The notes below the pieces were generated by a model. That model ran no database searches, had not been told where the DNA came from, and saw nothing but the letters and a program-made list of their open reading frames with translations. Shown here piece after piece: positions 3,864 through 10,461 of a stretch of DNA of 30,342 nucleotides (within the stretch, counting starts at the first letter, position 1; the number at the start of each line of letters is the position of its first letter). Origin of the DNA: a virus; the IMG/VR virus record IMGVR_UViG_3300005367_000293, positions 1 through 30,342 of that record; one strand, given 5' to 3'. A program made the translations under genes and the position numbers.

Positions 3864-4451
3864 GTGAGTGACCGGGTTGTCCTAGGAAAGCTGCACGAGC
3901 TGGCCGAGCTTCCGGGCATGCCCTCGGAGCCCGTGCTGCGGCGGCTTATCAGGGACAACATGGATTTTCCCGTCGTGTCGACCGGCACAAACGGGCGAGC
4001 GTACGAAATCGACATCGCCGCCGCCGTCCTCTGGGTTCGTAACCACGAAGAGGCCAAGCGGCAGGCCGAGCGTGATCGCGGCGAAGAGTTGCGGCAGCTC
4101 TCAATGGACCTGCTGGGTCCTGACGCTGCCAGCAACGTCGCCCAGGCTGGCCTATCGCCGGCCGAGCGCAAGGCGCTGCTCGAGGAAGAGCTGATCGCCA
4201 CGAAGCTGGCCGAACGGCGCGGCGAGCTGGTGCGAAAGGAGTCGGTGGAGGCTGCGTTCACAGCGGTGTTCGATCTGTTGGGCCAGCAGCGCCGCGGGCT
4301 TGCCGCGCGCCTAGCGAAGCGCAGCGATCTGTCGCGCAAGCAGCAGACGCTGATCGAGGAGTTGCTGGACCGGGATCTCGACGAGCTCGCGGCCAAGTTC
4401 GAGGAAATGGGACGCGGTGGTGGAATGCCAGACGGTGATCCCGCCCTTTGA
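3864..4451 (+). CDS. terS: Phage terminase small subunit (Nu1/DUF1441-like)
   Basis: GTG start at 3864, chosen because coding sense begins there and the cos-like region ends before it; 195 residues. Residues ~1-65 form a winged-helix-like DNA-binding head (VLGKLHELAELPGMPSEPVLRRLI ... GRAYEIDIAAAVLWVRN), the layout of lambda gpNu1. The rest is charged alpha-helix/coiled coil (RKALLEEELIATKLAERRGELVRKESVEAAFTAVF ...), as in small terminases that oligomerise and contact the large subunit. It would recognise cosB next door and load the large subunit on the genome. The 3' end overlaps the large-terminase gene by 35 bases. Confidence 0.82.
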   Translation: MSDRVVLGKLHELAELPGMPSEPVLRRLIRDNMDFPVVSTGTNGRAYEIDIAAAVLWVRNHEEAKRQAERDRGEELRQLSMDLLGPDAASNVAQAGLSPAERKALLEEELIATKLAERRGELVRKESVEAAFTAVFDLLGQQRRGLAARLAKRSDLSRKQQTLIEELLDRDLDELAAKFEEMGRGGGMPDGDPAL

Positions 4452-6489
4452 AACGGGGCTGCAGGTCGTCGGCCGTATGGCCTACCGGGTTCGACCCAAG
4501 GAAAAGCTGAGCGTCTCGCAATGGGCCGGCCGGCACATCCGGCACTACGATCCCAGTGCGTTGCCGTTCCTGGCCGAGATCATGGACGCGTGTTCGGATC
4601 CCGAAACCTGTGAGGTGGGCGACATGGGCCCGGCGCAGGGTGGCAAGTCGATGGTTGGAGAAGCCTTCATCGGGTGGTCCATTCACCAGGACCCTGCGCC
4701 GTTTCTCATGGGGCAGCCTGACAAGGCGGCCGCCGAAGCGTTCATCAAGTTGCGCGTCAACACGCTGCTGGCAACCATCCCGGCGCTGCGAGCCGAGCTG
4801 GCGCCCAGCGCCAGTGCGGACAACATGCACCTGAAGTTGTTCCGGGGCATGTATCTGGGCGCGGCCTGGCCGGTGAAGAGTCAGTTTCGCCAGCGGCCGT
4901 ACTGCCGGGGTTGGCTCGACGACTTCGACGCCTTTCCCGACGATATCGAGGGGGAAGGCGACGCGGTCGGTTTGCTTGAGGGGCGCATGACGACCTTCAA
5001 GGGGCGAGACACCAAGCTGGTATCATCGTCACCGGCAAAGGAAGGCGGCGGCATCGAAGCCTTCATCGAGGGCGGGACGGATGAAAGGCTGCGGCCGGTC
5101 TGTCCGGGTTGCGGAACGCGAGTCGAGTTCGACTTGATCCGCGATCTGAAGTTTGACGACGAGGGCGATGCCGAGATGGCCGCGCAGACCGCGCATGTCG
5201 TCTGCCCGGCTCATGGCTGCGTACTCGAACCAGAAACGCGGCACGTGCTGCTGGAGAGCCTGGATTTGCTCCCGAACCGGGGCTTCGTGGCGAAGCGACC
5301 GGAAGCTGGCAGGTATCGGCGGACGTTCAGGCGCGACGGCCTGTTGTCGTTCACGCCCTGGGCGGACCTTGCCCGCCAATGGCGTGCGGCGCAGATCGCC
5401 TGGGCCGATCGTCAGGATGAAGGACCGCTTCGTGTGTTCTACAACACGAAAGCGGGGAAGAACTACCGCTCGATCCTTTCAGGTGAAAAGCCGGTCGAGC
5501 CCGATACGCTTCGAGACCGTCGTCGGCCGGGGTGGTTGCTGGGAACGGTGCCACGTGGACCGAAGGTGCTCAATCTTGTGGTCGACGTGCAGCGTGACCG
5601 CTTCGAGTGTGCGGTGATCGGTACGGCGGCAGGGCGCGAGACCTGGCTGGTCGATCGTTTTGCGATCCATGTGCTGGATGACGGGCTGACCGGTGTCATG
5701 CCGTTCGTGCACAAGGAGCACTGGAAAGTGCTGCTCGGCCTGTTCGACCGTCTGTATCCGCTCGTCGAAAACGGGGTGACGGTGGGCCACGCGCCGGTGT
5801 TGTCGGTAACGGTGGACACCGGCGGCTCGGACAAGGCGGGCGACCAGGCGACGGAAGGCGCGAAGTACTTCTGGCAGGCCGCACGGGCTCTCGGTGTGCC
5901 CGCGACGCGGATCACGCTCGTGAAGGGTGGATCGAACGTCAAGGCGGCGTTGATGGCTCCCGGCCAGTTCGCCGACCAGAAAACACGGGGGGGCGGGAAG
6001 CGCAGCTCCGCGCGGCTGTGGATACCCAACCCGCACAAGATCAAGAACGTGATCGACGCCCGGTTGCGTCGAGAAAGGCCGGGGCCGGGCTATGTGCACC
6101 TGCCCGAGAACCTGAGCGACGAGTACATCGACGAGCTGGCCGCCGAGGAAATGGTGGATGGCAAGTGGAGCAAGCGCCGGGCCCGCAACGAGACGTGGGA
6201 TCTGCTGGTTTATGCCGAGGCCGCGATCCTCAAGCCGCCCTTCGCGCAGAGCCGCTCGGACATGCGATGGATCCCGCGCGGTTTCAGCGTTCAGTGGCCC
6301 GCCCGGTCGGAGTTGGTGCAGGCGATTTCAGGTCAGCCTGGATTGCCAGGGGTCGTGGCGGCCGTGGATGCGCCTACGGTTGAAACGGCGCCTGCGTCCC
6401 TACCGACTGCAAAGCCGCCCCATGTGCGCCAGAAGGCGGCAAGGAAACAGTGGATCAAGACGCCCGGCCCATGGCTTGGGCGACGGTAG
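4417..6489 (+). CDS. terL: Phage terminase large subunit, GpA family (ATPase-nuclease)
   Basis: Start at tandem GTGs at 4417, inside the small-subunit gene; 690 residues against 641 for lambda gpA. Walker A-like GPAQGGKS at ~71-78, Walker B-type WLDDFDAFPDD at ~166-176, and an SSSP coupling motif at ~203-206 build the packaging ATPase. A zinc-ribbon-like CPGC (229-232) with a partner C..HGC (263-268) follows. The nuclease half has LVVDVQ (D390) and VTVDTGG (D467), the acidic residues expected of the RNase H-like cos cutter, then a basic tail. It docks on the portal, cuts cos and pumps DNA into the prohead. The adjoining small subunit, cos-like site and portal support the call. Confidence 0.95.
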   Translation: MVECQTVIPPFETGLQVVGRMAYRVRPKEKLSVSQWAGRHIRHYDPSALPFLAEIMDACSDPETCEVGDMGPAQGGKSMVGEAFIGWSIHQDPAPFLMGQPDKAAAEAFIKLRVNTLLATIPALRAELAPSASADNMHLKLFRGMYLGAAWPVKSQFRQRPYCRGWLDDFDAFPDDIEGEGDAVGLLEGRMTTFKGRDTKLVSSSPAKEGGGIEAFIEGGTDERLRPVCPGCGTRVEFDLIRDLKFDDEGDAEMAAQTAHVVCPAHGCVLEPETRHVLLESLDLLPNRGFVAKRPEAGRYRRTFRRDGLLSFTPWADLARQWRAAQIAWADRQDEGPLRVFYNTKAGKNYRSILSGEKPVEPDTLRDRRRPGWLLGTVPRGPKVLNLVVDVQRDRFECAVIGTAAGRETWLVDRFAIHVLDDGLTGVMPFVHKEHWKVLLGLFDRLYPLVENGVTVGHAPVLSVTVDTGGSDKAGDQATEGAKYFWQAARALGVPATRITLVKGGSNVKAALMAPGQFADQKTRGGGKRSSARLWIPNPHKIKNVIDARLRRERPGPGYVHLPENLSDEYIDELAAEEMVDGKWSKRRARNETWDLLVYAEAAILKPPFAQSRSDMRWIPRGFSVQWPARSELVQAISGQPGLPGVVAAVDAPTVETAPASLPTAKPPHVRQKAARKQWIKTPGPWLGRR

Positions 6490-6503
6490 ACAGGAGAAGT
6501 CTG

Positions 6504-6788
6504 ATGGAAATGTATGTCTGCAGCGCATCCGACGCGCGCACTGCGAACAACGCTGTTCGTCACACCTACCGCGTGCTTTCCGATGTCGAAAAGGCACAGA
6601 TGGTGGCGATCAAGGACAAGGGCGCCGAGTTCTTGCAGCTCATCGAAAACCTGCGCTCGCCGCCCGAACCGGCAGGCAAGGTCAATGGAATCGAAGTGGC
6701 ACTCGGCACGTTTGATCGCGAGCTGAGCATCGCGACCGAGAAAGTCGAAGAGGCGGTCATGTGGGCCGTCAAGCATATCACTTCGTAA
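6504..6788 (+). CDS. Acb2/Tad1-like small protein (candidate cyclic-nucleotide sponge, anti-CBASS/anti-Thoeris)
   Basis: ATG at 6504 with GGAGAAG at 6492-6498; 94 residues. The layout matches the Acb2/Tad1 hairpin domain as I know it: HTYRVLSDVEKAQMVAIKDKGAEF (~20-43) as the first helix with the tyrosine-arginine turn, and RELSIATEKVEEAVMWAVKHITS (~72-94) as the closing helix. A ~20-residue loop (RSPPEPAGKVNGIEVALGTF) separates them. Known Acb2 and Tad1 proteins bind immune signals made by CBASS or Thoeris enzymes and so block host defence. The gene lies between the large terminase and the gpW-like gene, a place where phages often carry small accessory genes. The family call is fairly good; which nucleotide it binds cannot be told, and a structural role is not excluded. 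Confidence 0.72.
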   Translation: MEMYVCSASDARTANNAVRHTYRVLSDVEKAQMVAIKDKGAEFLQLIENLRSPPEPAGKVNGIEVALGTFDRELSIATEKVEEAVMWAVKHITS

Positions 6789-6806: not shown

Positions 6807-7025
6807 GTGGCATTTTCCCGCACGGATCTCGACGCTTTGGACGTCCAGATCCAGAAAGGCATCAAGAAGGTCACGTTTGCCGACGGGCGAAGTCGCGAGT
6901 TCCAATCCGTCAGCGAAATGATGGAGCTGCGCCGCGAGATGAAGTCCGAAATCACGGCCGCCGAAACGCAGGTGAACCCACGTACGCGGACCAGCCTGGG
7001 CCGCATGCGGCGCCGGGGCTGCTGA
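6807..7025 (+). CDS. gpW-like head-tail joining protein
   Basis: GTG at 6807 with GGAGA at 6795-6799; 72 residues, close to lambda gpW (68). The order is a first helix (TDLDALDVQIQKGI), a beta-hairpin-like KVTFADGRSREFQS, and a second helix (VSEMMELRREMKSEI), then a basic tail rich in Arg. That is the alpha-beta-beta-alpha pattern of gpW, which plugs the portal after DNA packaging and prepares the head for tail attachment. It sits directly before the portal gene, as in lambda. Confidence 0.82.
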   Translation: MAFSRTDLDALDVQIQKGIKKVTFADGRSREFQSVSEMMELRREMKSEITAAETQVNPRTRTSLGRMRRRGC

Positions 7026-7028
7026 TTC

Positions 7029-8486
7029 GTGAACCTGCTCGACCAGATGATTGCCTATGTCGCGCCAGAAAGCGCGGCCCGGCGTGCCGCCGCTCGCATC
7101 GCGATCGGACGGGCGGCGGCGGTCGAGCGGCGTATCAAGCGATCGGCGGACAGCTTTCGCTACGACGATCGGGATGCCAGGGTCGGGATGAAGTCGAAGC
7201 GCGGTCCGATGACGCGCGCTGAGCGCGAGTCCCTCTGGCGCTTGTTCCGCCTCAATCCGTTCGCCCGCAAGGCGATGAACGCCATGCTGAACGCCCTCAT
7301 CGGTTACGGCATCACGGGCTCGCCGGTCCGGGCCAAGGCGGTCGCCAAGGACTGGGCGGAATGGATCAAGGTCTGCGACTGGGACGGTGTCCTGGACTTC
7401 TACGGCATTCAGGAGCTGGTGGCGCGGTGCTGGATGCTTGACGGCGAAGTGTTCATCGTCTTTCGCATTGCCAGCGGCGTTACTGGCAATCCGCTACGGT
7501 TGCAGGTGCTCGCCGCCGACCAGCTCGCCACGGGCGTGGCGGCCACGCATATCCGGCAGGGTATCGAGTTCGCGTCGGGTCGTCCGGCCGCCTATCATTT
7601 CAAGAAGGCCCGCGAGGGCGTCGACGTCCTTGGCGTGGAGCGGATCGCGGCCGAGAACGTGGTGCACCTGTTTACGCGCGAGGAACCTGGCCAGTGGCGC
7701 GGCCGCAGCCATTTCGAGAGCGTCACCGATGCCTTGCAGGGCGTGGACGACTATCTCGAGGCCGAAGGGGTGCGCAAGCGCATCGAAAGTTGCTTCGTCG
7801 CCTTCGTGTCGCAAAGCGCGGACGCTGCAGCGGATTCGACGCCGCTAGGCCGGATCGACGACGAAGGTGAGGGTGACGGCCTGGGGCCGGAAGGTGAGCG
7901 CGAAGAAACGTTCTACCCGGGCATGATCAATTATGGGCTGCCGGGAGAACAGGTCACTTTCGGTGAGCCGAAAGCCGCCGGCGGCTTCGGCGATTTCCTG
8001 CGATGGGGTTCGGTTCGCGCATCGGCCGGCGCAGGCGTTACCTACGAGGGCATGACGGGCGACCTGTCCAACGTGAACTTCGCCAGCTTTCGCGCCGGCG
8101 AGAACGAATTCAAGCGGCTAATCGGCCGCCTGCAGTGGCTGCACCTGATCCCTCGCGTGTTGGACCGCGTCTATGACGCCTTCTGCCGGGTGGGGATGGA
8201 AACAGGCCGCTTCGCCAAGAAGCCGGTGATGAAGTGGGCGACGCCGCCGTTCGCGTCGATCGATCCCAAGGGCGATGCCGAGGCTGCCATTCTGGAGATG
8301 GAAGCAGGTCTGGAAACGCATCGCTCCAAGATCAACGAGCGCGGCTACGACTACGACGAGCAGATCGACGATCTCGCGCGCGATTTCGACGCGCGGCGCG
8401 TGAAGGGTCTGGCATTGAAGGGCGATCCGTCGCCGGCGCCCGCGAGTGCAAAGAAGGAACCGAGTGATGGACAAGCCGCCGCCTGA
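7029..8486 (+). CDS. Lambda-type portal protein (gpB family)
   Basis: GTG start at 7029, four bases after the gpW-like stop; 485 residues (lambda gpB 533). The N-terminus has an Ala/Arg-rich leader, then SFRYDDRD and LWRLFRLNPFARKAMNAMLNALIGYGI, typical of PF05136 portals, and a conserved core WMLDGEVFIVFRI, LQVLAADQLA and VVHLFTREEPGQWRGRS (portal-loop type). The GGFGDFLRWGSVRASAGAGVTYEGMTGDLSNVNFASFR block at ~317-354 is the best-known lambda-portal signature. It forms the dodecameric ring at the vertex through which DNA enters and leaves. The last 20 bases overlap the capsid fusion gene. Confidence 0.93.
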   Translation: MNLLDQMIAYVAPESAARRAAARIAIGRAAAVERRIKRSADSFRYDDRDARVGMKSKRGPMTRAERESLWRLFRLNPFARKAMNAMLNALIGYGITGSPVRAKAVAKDWAEWIKVCDWDGVLDFYGIQELVARCWMLDGEVFIVFRIASGVTGNPLRLQVLAADQLATGVAATHIRQGIEFASGRPAAYHFKKAREGVDVLGVERIAAENVVHLFTREEPGQWRGRSHFESVTDALQGVDDYLEAEGVRKRIESCFVAFVSQSADAAADSTPLGRIDDEGEGDGLGPEGEREETFYPGMINYGLPGEQVTFGEPKAAGGFGDFLRWGSVRASAGAGVTYEGMTGDLSNVNFASFRAGENEFKRLIGRLQWLHLIPRVLDRVYDAFCRVGMETGRFAKKPVMKWATPPFASIDPKGDAEAAILEMEAGLETHRSKINERGYDYDEQIDDLARDFDARRVKGLALKGDPSPAPASAKKEPSDGQAAA

Positions 8487-10461
8487 CCTGCGGGTCACTT
8501 CGCCGATGATGATGAGGGCTGCCACGGTGCAGCCCTCTTCGTTTCAGGAGGACGACAACTCGATCGAAGTCGTGTTCTCCACCGGAGCCGCGGTGACCCG
8601 GTACGACTGGTGGGACGACGAATACTACGACGAGACCCTCTCTCTCGACGAAGGTGCGGTCAGGCTCGAACGGCTGAATGCCGGGGCCACGTTCCTGGCG
8701 GACCATCGGGCCTCGCTGAACTCGGTGATCGGGTCGGTGTCACCCGGCACCGCCCGGATCGAGGGCGGCTTGGCGCTGGCGCGCATCCGCCTTGCCACCA
8801 CCGAGGACGTTGCCGCTCTCGTGGCCAAGATTCGAGACGGTCACGTTCGTACGGTGAGCGTCGGCTACGTGGTGCACGAGTACACGATGCGTGACGCCGG
8901 CGAGGGCAAGCGCAAGGAAATGCGGGCTACCGACTGGGAGCCTTACGAGATTTCGGCCGTGGCCATTCCCGCCGACGCGGGAGCGGTGATGCGTGCACGA
9001 TCTGCCGAGCAGGGCGGCTTTCCCTGCATCGTTCGCGGCGCGGCCGCACAAGCCAAGGAAACGAGAATGGATCCGACGACCACTTCGGCGCCGGCGCCCG
9101 CGCCGACTGCCACTCCTGCCCCCACGCCCGCGCCGACCGAGCGCCAGGCCGAACACGTGTCCGTCGCTACCATCATGGAGCGCGGCAAGGTGCTCGGCAA
9201 CGATGCGGTCGTCACCCTGATCGGCCGGCACACCACCGACCCGATGACGGCGCTCGACCTGGAGCGCGCGATCAACGACGTCTACGCGTCTCGCAACCCG
9301 GTGCCGGAGATTGACAACTCGCGGGTGGAGGTCACTCACGACCAGCGCGACAAATGGATCGAGGGTGCGACGCACTGGCTCATCGTCAAGGCCGGGCTGC
9401 GCGGTCAGGCGGAGCGCGCGGCGAGGCAGCGCGGCGAAAACCTGAAAATCGACCCGGGTGAGTTCCGCGGCGTGTCGATGCTCGAGCTCGCCCGCGAAAG
9501 CGTGCATGCGCTTGGCCTCAAGCCCCGCTCGCGCGATCCGAAGGAGCTTGTCGGCCTGGCGCTCACCGGGCGGTCCGCGATCACCCAGGGCACCAGCGAT
9601 TTCGTCGTGCTGCTCGAGAACGTCATGCACAAGACGGTGCAGGACGCCTATCGCACCACCGCTGACACATGGAGTCGCTGGTGTGGAGTGGGATCGGTGA
9701 GCGACTTCCGGGATCACAACCGGTACCTGCGCGGCAGCTTCGGCGCGCTCGATCTGGTCAACGAGCTGGGCGAGTTCAAGAACAAGCCGATCCCGGACGG
9801 CGCTCGCGAGAAGATCCGCGCGCTGACCAAGGGCAACATCATCAGCCTGAGCCGGCAGGCGATCATCAATGACGACATGGGTGTGTTCAGCGGCCTGGCG
9901 ACGGACCTCGGCCGTGCAGCCAAGCTGTCGATCGAGATCGATGCCTATGCGCTGCTCGCCAGCAACCCGGCGATGGCGGACGGCAATCCGCTGTTCGATG
10001 CCAGCCATGGCAACCTCGAGACGTCCGGCGTTGTGCCGAGCGTCGCGGCGATCGACGCTATGCGCGTGGCCATGGCAAAGCAGAAGGACGTGAGTGGAAA
10101 CGAGTACCTCGACATCGCGCCGTCCATCTGGCTCGGCCCGATCGGGCTGGGGAGCGCCGTGCGGGTGATCAACGACAGCCAGTACGACCACGACAGCACC
10201 AAGTTGCAGAAGCCGAACCCGGTCGCCAAGATCTTCACCGACGTCGTCGATACCGCGCGGCTTTCGGGCACGGCCTGGTATACGCTCTCCGATCCGAACA
10301 TGGCGCCTGCGATCGAAGTCGTGTTCCTCAACGGCGAGCAGGACCCGTTCGTGGACAGCCAGGAAGGCTGGCGCATCGACGGGGTTGAGTGGAAGGTGCG
10401 CCACGACTACGGCGTGGGCGCCGTCAACTGGCGCGCCATTCGGAAGAACCCGGGCGCCTGA
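8467..10461 (+). CDS. Prohead protease-major capsid protein fusion (HK97-like protease + Mu gpT-like capsid)
   Basis: ATG at 8467 with AAGGAA at 8454-8459; 664 residues. Residues ~30-180 are an HK97/S78-type prohead protease: FLADH (H80), RTVSVGY (S131) and a downstream WEPYEISAVAIPAD with an acidic residue suggest the catalytic set. A Pro/Ala/Thr linker (~201-228) leads to a helical, scaffold-like stretch (~230-345), then a Mu-type capsid fold (TSDFVVLLENVMHKTV, WSRWCGVGSVSDFRDHNR, LFDASHGN, ending IDGVEWKVRHDYGVGAVNWRAIRKNPGA). Such fusions are known in phages: the protease would cut itself and the scaffold from the capsid subunit as the shell matures. An in-frame ATG with a good ribosome site lies at 9067. 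The fusion is intact, without frameshift. Confidence 0.92.
   Translation: MDKPPPDLRVTSPMMMRAATVQPSSFQEDDNSIEVVFSTGAAVTRYDWWDDEYYDETLSLDEGAVRLERLNAGATFLADHRASLNSVIGSVSPGTARIEGGLALARIRLATTEDVAALVAKIRDGHVRTVSVGYVVHEYTMRDAGEGKRKEMRATDWEPYEISAVAIPADAGAVMRARSAEQGGFPCIVRGAAAQAKETRMDPTTTSAPAPAPTATPAPTPAPTERQAEHVSVATIMERGKVLGNDAVVTLIGRHTTDPMTALDLERAINDVYASRNPVPEIDNSRVEVTHDQRDKWIEGATHWLIVKAGLRGQAERAARQRGENLKIDPGEFRGVSMLELARESVHALGLKPRSRDPKELVGLALTGRSAITQGTSDFVVLLENVMHKTVQDAYRTTADTWSRWCGVGSVSDFRDHNRYLRGSFGALDLVNELGEFKNKPIPDGAREKIRALTKGNIISLSRQAIINDDMGVFSGLATDLGRAAKLSIEIDAYALLASNPAMADGNPLFDASHGNLETSGVVPSVAAIDAMRVAMAKQKDVSGNEYLDIAPSIWLGPIGLGSAVRVINDSQYDHDSTKLQKPNPVAKIFTDVVDTARLSGTAWYTLSDPNMAPAIEVVFLNGEQDPFVDSQEGWRIDGVEWKVRHDYGVGAVNWRAIRKNPGA
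9055..9069 (+). promoter_or_regulatory. Internal ribosome-binding site and start for a scaffold-capsid product
   Basis: AAGGAA at 9055-9060 lies six bases before an in-frame ATG at 9067, exactly at the junction between the protease domain and the Pro/Ala/Thr linker. Use of this start would give a 464-residue product without protease, alongside the full fusion. Position, spacing and frame are seen directly; use in vivo is inferred. Confidence 0.5.

Follow-up and report, generated by a model that had tools for sequence, protein, structure and literature searches.

A putative Acb2-type nucleotide sponge encoded between terminase and head-joining genes in a phage late head operon

The gene and its place in the head operon

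The window, a stretch of 30,342 nucleotides of viral DNA (positions 1 to 30,342 of the IMG/VR record IMGVR_UViG_3300005367_000293), carries a series of head genes on the + strand. A sequence-only reading had picked out a small ORF between the terminase and head-joining genes as an Acb2/Tad1-like sponge of immune signals. The analysis confirmed what that reading had observed (the ORF, its family, its hairpin and its location); its interpretation fared less evenly, with the family, the loop, late expression and an anti-CBASS role finding support and a second, structural role finding none. The genes and the ribosome-binding site concerned are:

4489..6489, + strand: terminase large subunit (TerL), lambda gpA family (PF05876, PF20454; phrog_15); the start is approximate and the ORF opens at 4417
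6492..6497, + strand: good Shine-Dalgarno (AGGAGA) of the sponge gene, from the sequence
6504..6788, + strand: putative Acb2-type sponge gene, 94 aa (PF24729, E 1.9e-16; relatives: 80 viral and 22 genomic)
6807..7025, + strand: gpW-like head-tail adaptor (phrog_2545, E 6e-10)
7029..8486, + strand: lambda-family portal protein (PF05136, E 1.1e-67)
8446..10461, + strand: prohead protease fused to major capsid protein (PF04586, PF25209)

The ORF at 6504-6788, with exactly 94 uninterrupted residues, is a genuine gene on which purifying selection acts. Its codon-position GC of 0.60/0.39/0.74 is that of a true coding frame, and comparison with the nearest relatives gives a dN of 0.19-0.20 and a dS of 1.6-2.1 where computable, which is near saturation; the resulting dN/dS of about 0.1 indicates that the protein is maintained by selection. 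Overall GC is 57.5%, lower than the 62-69% of the neighbours and in line with acquired cargo. Only 14 nt separate the TerL stop (6489) from the ATG, leaving no room for a promoter of its own in the gap, and no promoter-like site was found near the gene on the + strand. The next start follows 18 nt after its end. The proposed late co-expression with the head genes is supported from gene spacing.

Other features of this head module deserve mention. The prohead protease and major capsid protein of the window form one 671-aa ORF (8446-10461). In relatives of the window TerL (L086-L089 and L092-L099), a protein of 177-187 aa lies directly 3′ of TerL, with a C-terminus resembling the gpW-like adaptor and an added N-terminal domain; it is 239 aa as called in L087, and a contig end shortens the L095 copy.

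Family membership, fold and nucleotide pocket

By sequence, assignment of the 94-aa protein to the Acb2/Tad1 hairpin family (PF24729) is secure. The profile search scored 60.4 bits, about twice the cut-off (27), and covered model positions 1-57 of 58. When a profile built from 54 relatives was run against the PDB, solved Acb2 ranked first, followed by T4 Vs.4 and Tad1 (E 1.8e-4 to 6e-3); the profile was needed because phmmer with the single sequence yielded only chance matches in the PDB. PADLOC, whose models describe defence proteins, gave no match. Proteins of the Acb2/Tad1 family soak up the alarm molecules that bacteria use for infection-triggered suicide, and Acb2 is a homohexamer.

The two-helix hairpin read from the sequence is present in the AlphaFold2 single-chain model, and a 75-aa relative that lacks the long loop is likewise modelled as two long antiparallel helices, with helix pLDDT of about 97 in both cases. 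With the window model as query, Acb2 chains take the first four places among the Foldseek matches in the PDB, at weak E-values (0.7-0.8). With the loop-less relative, Acb2 chains fill all of the 8 best places at a probability of 0.98-1.0, several 8h2x/8h2j chains superposing with an rmsd of 1.4-1.5 Å; one chance match and then Tad1 follow. Single-chain Foldseek E-values are weak (0.17-0.7), as is expected of a fold with so little information as two helices. In a viral model library, most of the top structure matches are named as Acb2/Tad1 hairpin proteins. Within the gene, the following positions on the + strand are discussed below:

6567..6569, +: Y22 codon, equivalent to Y8 of T4 Acb2 and Y11 of PaMx43 Acb2 in the cyclic-dinucleotide pocket (alignment)
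6582..6650, +: helix 1, residues 27-49 (AlphaFold2 model, pLDDT about 97)
6612..6614, +: K37 codon, equivalent to K26 of PaMx43 Acb2 (alignment; invariant in 54 relatives)
6651..6716, +: clade-specific loop, residues 50-71, with a predicted beta-hairpin at 55-67 (alignment and AlphaFold2 model)
6717..6782, +: helix 2, residues 72-93, starting with conserved R72 (AlphaFold2 model and alignment)
6738..6740, +: E79 codon; 44 of 54 relatives have Thr here, as does T4 Acb2 (T68) (alignment)

Both the pocket Tyr and the pocket Lys of Acb2 are kept in the window protein, and Y22, K37, G40 and M86 are unchanged in the alignment across T4-like, PaMx43 and VP882 Acb2. K26 of PaMx33 Acb2 is presumably a pocket residue, and we take R67 of that protein to have a role as well. 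Among the 54 relatives, N16, R19, H20, L25, E29, K30, K37, D38, G40, A84, V85, M86 and T93 never vary. An N-terminal motif before the hairpin, NN..RH.YR, is particular to the subfamily of the window protein. The closing segment EEAVMWAVKHIT (residues 82-93) that marked the protein out at first sight is indeed there; the Tyr-Arg pair described as forming the turn also exists (Y22-R23), but it sits just before helix 1, outside the hairpin turn. At the equivalent of Y22, the mutation Y8A disrupts T4 Acb2 in both binding and function (PMC12657218, PMC12657230).

At another pocket position the window protein departs from Acb2. T68 of T4 Acb2, whose change to Met lowers binding (PMC12657230), is replaced by Glu (E79). 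This Thr is widely conserved, in both Acb2 and Tad1 sequences, and is not family-defining; its replacement could therefore weaken binding of the usual ligand. Across the 54 relatives, position 79 is Glu in 6/6 long-loop members and in 2/48 others; because these sequences are related, a p-value for the association does not count as independent evidence. The inter-helix loop of some 20 residues, which had been called unusual, is real (residues 50-71) and does stand out within its subfamily, where 72-79 aa is the usual length; Pseudomonas-phage Acb2, however, carries a longer insertion at the same place. The long loop is confined to one clade (the window, L001-L006 and L101). It is plausible that the beta-hairpin loop changes ligand choice, and with the Thr-to-Glu change, which goes with the same clade, ligand choice may differ. 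Together, the two would probably tune which nucleotide binds, making the clade a natural experiment on ligand change in a hairpin fold.

These departures raise the possibility that the protein, with an unchanged fold, acts as a sponge in a different cyclic-nucleotide pathway, for instance Pycsar or the cyclic oligoadenylates of type III CRISPR. Acb2 also binds cA3, which is shared with type III CRISPR (PMC12043709), and the loop clade has exchanged a conserved pocket Thr and gained a predicted beta-hairpin. We nevertheless consider this reading rather improbable, given that Y22 and K37 are retained and that the gene family repeatedly neighbours Acb1 (see below), the known substrates of which are CBASS cyclic oligonucleotides.

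The known proteins of this family differ in architecture and gene setting. Acb2 (T4 Vs.4, PaMx33/PaMx43 gp24 and VP882 p26) has in common with the window protein the PF24729 hairpin, a short N-terminal part, the pocket Tyr and Lys, and the same predicted two-helix fold; the T4-like and PaMx43 proteins are also of similar length (88-94 aa). Identity is about 28-33%, and the extra invariant NN..RH N-terminal motif, E79 in place of Thr, and the beta-hairpin loop set the window protein apart from Acb2. Gene location differs as well: PaMx43 ORF24 closes a block of DNA-replication genes and T4-like acb2 lies near regB, whereas the window gene is in a head operon. Tad1 (from a Clostridium botulinum prophage and SBSphiJ7) belongs to the same Pfam family and has the same helix 2 motif, SRE...EEA.MW, but solved Tad1 chains are about 123-138 aa long and have an N-terminal beta-sheet domain.

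The resemblance to Tad1 bears on whether the main target could be the Thoeris signal gcADPR. Helix 2 of the window protein (REL.IA..KVEEAVMW) is as like Tad1 (SRENACALTHVEEALMW) as it is like Acb2, and the major head protein is also sensed by Thoeris (PMC11312562). In Tad1, the gcADPR pocket is described as combining four conserved loops and the C-terminal tail with helices contributed by the partner (PMC12043709). The four-stranded N-terminal beta-sheet domain of Tad1 is absent from the window sequence and model, in which just 21 residues without any beta domain precede Y22, as in Acb2. In addition, the whole-chain fold matches Acb2 first, and the linkage is to the anti-CBASS protein Acb1. 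We therefore regard a Tad1-type sponge as unlikely, and of the two systems that the sequence-only reading had named, CBASS stands as the predicted target, on the basis of the kept pocket residues and the Acb1 linkage, and Thoeris becomes the less likely one since the Tad1 beta domain is missing.

Distribution of the gene and its link to Acb1

Acb1 (PF23474) is a phage 2H phosphoesterase directed against CBASS, the pathway proposed for the sponge; it is an enzyme that cleaves the signal, unlike a sponge. We found Acb1 in the records of 16 of the 80 viral relatives; in 14 of these 16 the gap to the sponge is 12-210 bp, with the Acb1 domain stopping 12-60 bp upstream of it in 11. In the Acb1-linked relatives other than L048, Acb1 forms the C-terminal domain of Phage_portal_3 portals (PF06381), and both HxT catalytic motifs are retained in all 13 Acb1 domains read. 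Among the 22 bacterial genomes with a sponge, five have Acb1, and the distance to the sponge is 75-2016 bp for all five copies. These linkage counts are not independent, since some of the Acb1-linked loci share ancestry; a weakly resolved tree splits the Acb1-adjacent copies into at least three groups, with 11 changes. No Acb1 was found in the window or in the records of 15 relatives of its TerL. The frequency difference between sponge records and TerL-relative records (16/80 versus 0/15) is suggestive only (Fisher p 0.07), and the whole-genome distance between sponge and Acb1 is the stronger test.

The nearest relatives of the window protein are an alphaproteobacterial PF24729 subfamily (L002-L009, L011, L012 and L101) with the same NN..RH.YR and EEAVMWAVKHIT motifs. 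This subfamily sits behind a Phage_portal_3-Acb1 fusion, whereas the window copy, though a member of the long-loop clade that is mostly found behind portal-Acb1, lies between a lambda-type TerL and gpW and has no Acb1. L001, 83% identical to the window copy, is a fragment likewise without Acb1.

Portal-Acb1 fusions occur at L002:4067-5995, L004:53-1945, L007:4070-5995, L009:3309-5123, L012:2538-4496, L020:188-2056, L061:3975-5801 and L079:4040-5905. At L048:6251-7606 the fusion partner is instead a prohead protease (PF04586), which has Acb1 as its N-terminal domain and starts just 3′ of the sponge gene. We found no description of Acb1 fused to a portal or prohead protease in the open literature, which leaves out most subscription journals. 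In 18 near relatives of the portal-Acb1 proteins, the slot behind the portal holds the sponge in 3 and nothing or other small ORFs in the rest; small genes seem to be swapped in and out of this slot as at a hotspot. In L131-L133 this slot, behind the portal-Acb1 stop, contains a 140-aa ORF with a GSxxRDLDV nucleotidyltransferase-like motif, recognised by eye.

The sponge gene is mobile accessory cargo. A TerL/gpW/portal neighbourhood in common with the relatives of the sponge was sought and not found: none of the 80 viral relatives has the gene between a window-type TerL and gpW. Conversely, PF24729 is absent from all 15 records, some of them fragments, with a TerL 63-69% identical to that of the window, and L090 and L091, which cover the slot, have the same TerL-gpW-portal-protease/MCP order without the sponge. 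The neighbours of the sponge among its relatives are mostly head genes of unrelated types, including portals of several families, terminases, proteases, and capsid and morphogenesis proteins. These counts are lower bounds from family scans of neighbour sets, used because neighbour calling by longest ORFs was noisy. They suggest that the family prefers late head operons and is tied to no single head.

This preference could also be read as a sign that the protein only resembles Acb2 and serves in head structure or assembly, perhaps at the portal vertex. The occurrence of the family in head modules of several unrelated types agrees with that reading, as does its relative in Sinorhizobium phage Aussie, located between the head-to-tail adaptor and the stopper. 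However, close relatives of the head module do without the gene, which itself changes place among modules of unrelated kinds, the sponge follows the portal in only 3 of the 18 near portal-Acb1 relatives, and its nucleotide-pocket residues are conserved. A structural role, which had been offered as a second function to explain the late operon, is thus not supported, and we consider it very unlikely.

Proposed role and timing

The protein is probably an Acb2-type cyclic-oligonucleotide sponge that is carried as accessory cargo of a late head operon and intercepts CBASS messengers, CBASS being the most likely target judging from the conserved sequence features. Of the new evidence for this, the linkage to Acb1 is the strongest. 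We infer its oligomerisation, ligand, timing and effect on CBASS as follows. The sponge would be translated from the late head operon alongside terminase, portal and protease/capsid, and would probably oligomerise like Acb2. CBASS second messengers would bind in pockets made of the N-terminal segment (NN..RH.YR), K37 and helix 2, keeping the CBASS effector inactive before lysis so that lysis could proceed on schedule. Most of its clade is encoded behind portal-Acb1 fusions, and the window phage has the sponge without Acb1.

Production of a sponge with the head proteins would be well timed, because head proteins trigger CBASS in other phages. A CBASS cyclase is reported to be switched on by a prohead protease, and capsid-gene mutations to lead to CBASS escape (PMC11312562, PMC12409349); activation of Thoeris by the major head protein is described as well (PMC11312562). 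CD-NTase (SMODS) genes score over the cut-off in 6 of the 22 bacterial genomes that carry sponge relatives.

These results would add to the cyclic-nucleotide sponges an uncharacterised subfamily that occurs in (mostly) alphaproteobacterial phages, in late head operons. More tentatively, alphaproteobacterial phages may possess a head-module anti-CBASS cassette, consisting of a mobile sponge and an Acb1 fused to portal or protease, the head proteins made when CBASS is set off, in which the loop clade, the window copy included, has switched ligand through the hairpin insertion and the Thr-to-Glu change; we see this as possible and short of probable. The Acb1-portal and Acb1-protease fusions suggest that phages might couple their counter-defence, in timing and by physical tethering, to those head proteins which are sensed by bacteria, a question that the sponge makes testable.

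Other relatives of the sponge show further variation. In L028:5992-6657 (222 aa) and L035:4546-5196 (217 aa) the sponge hairpin runs into a hydrophobic C-terminal extension, possibly forming a membrane-anchored sponge. L083 (HQ332136.1, Dunaliella viridis virus SI2) encodes a sponge that is 51% identical; its record names a green alga as host, yet the virus is assigned to the tailed phages, and probably a bacterium present in the culture was the real host.
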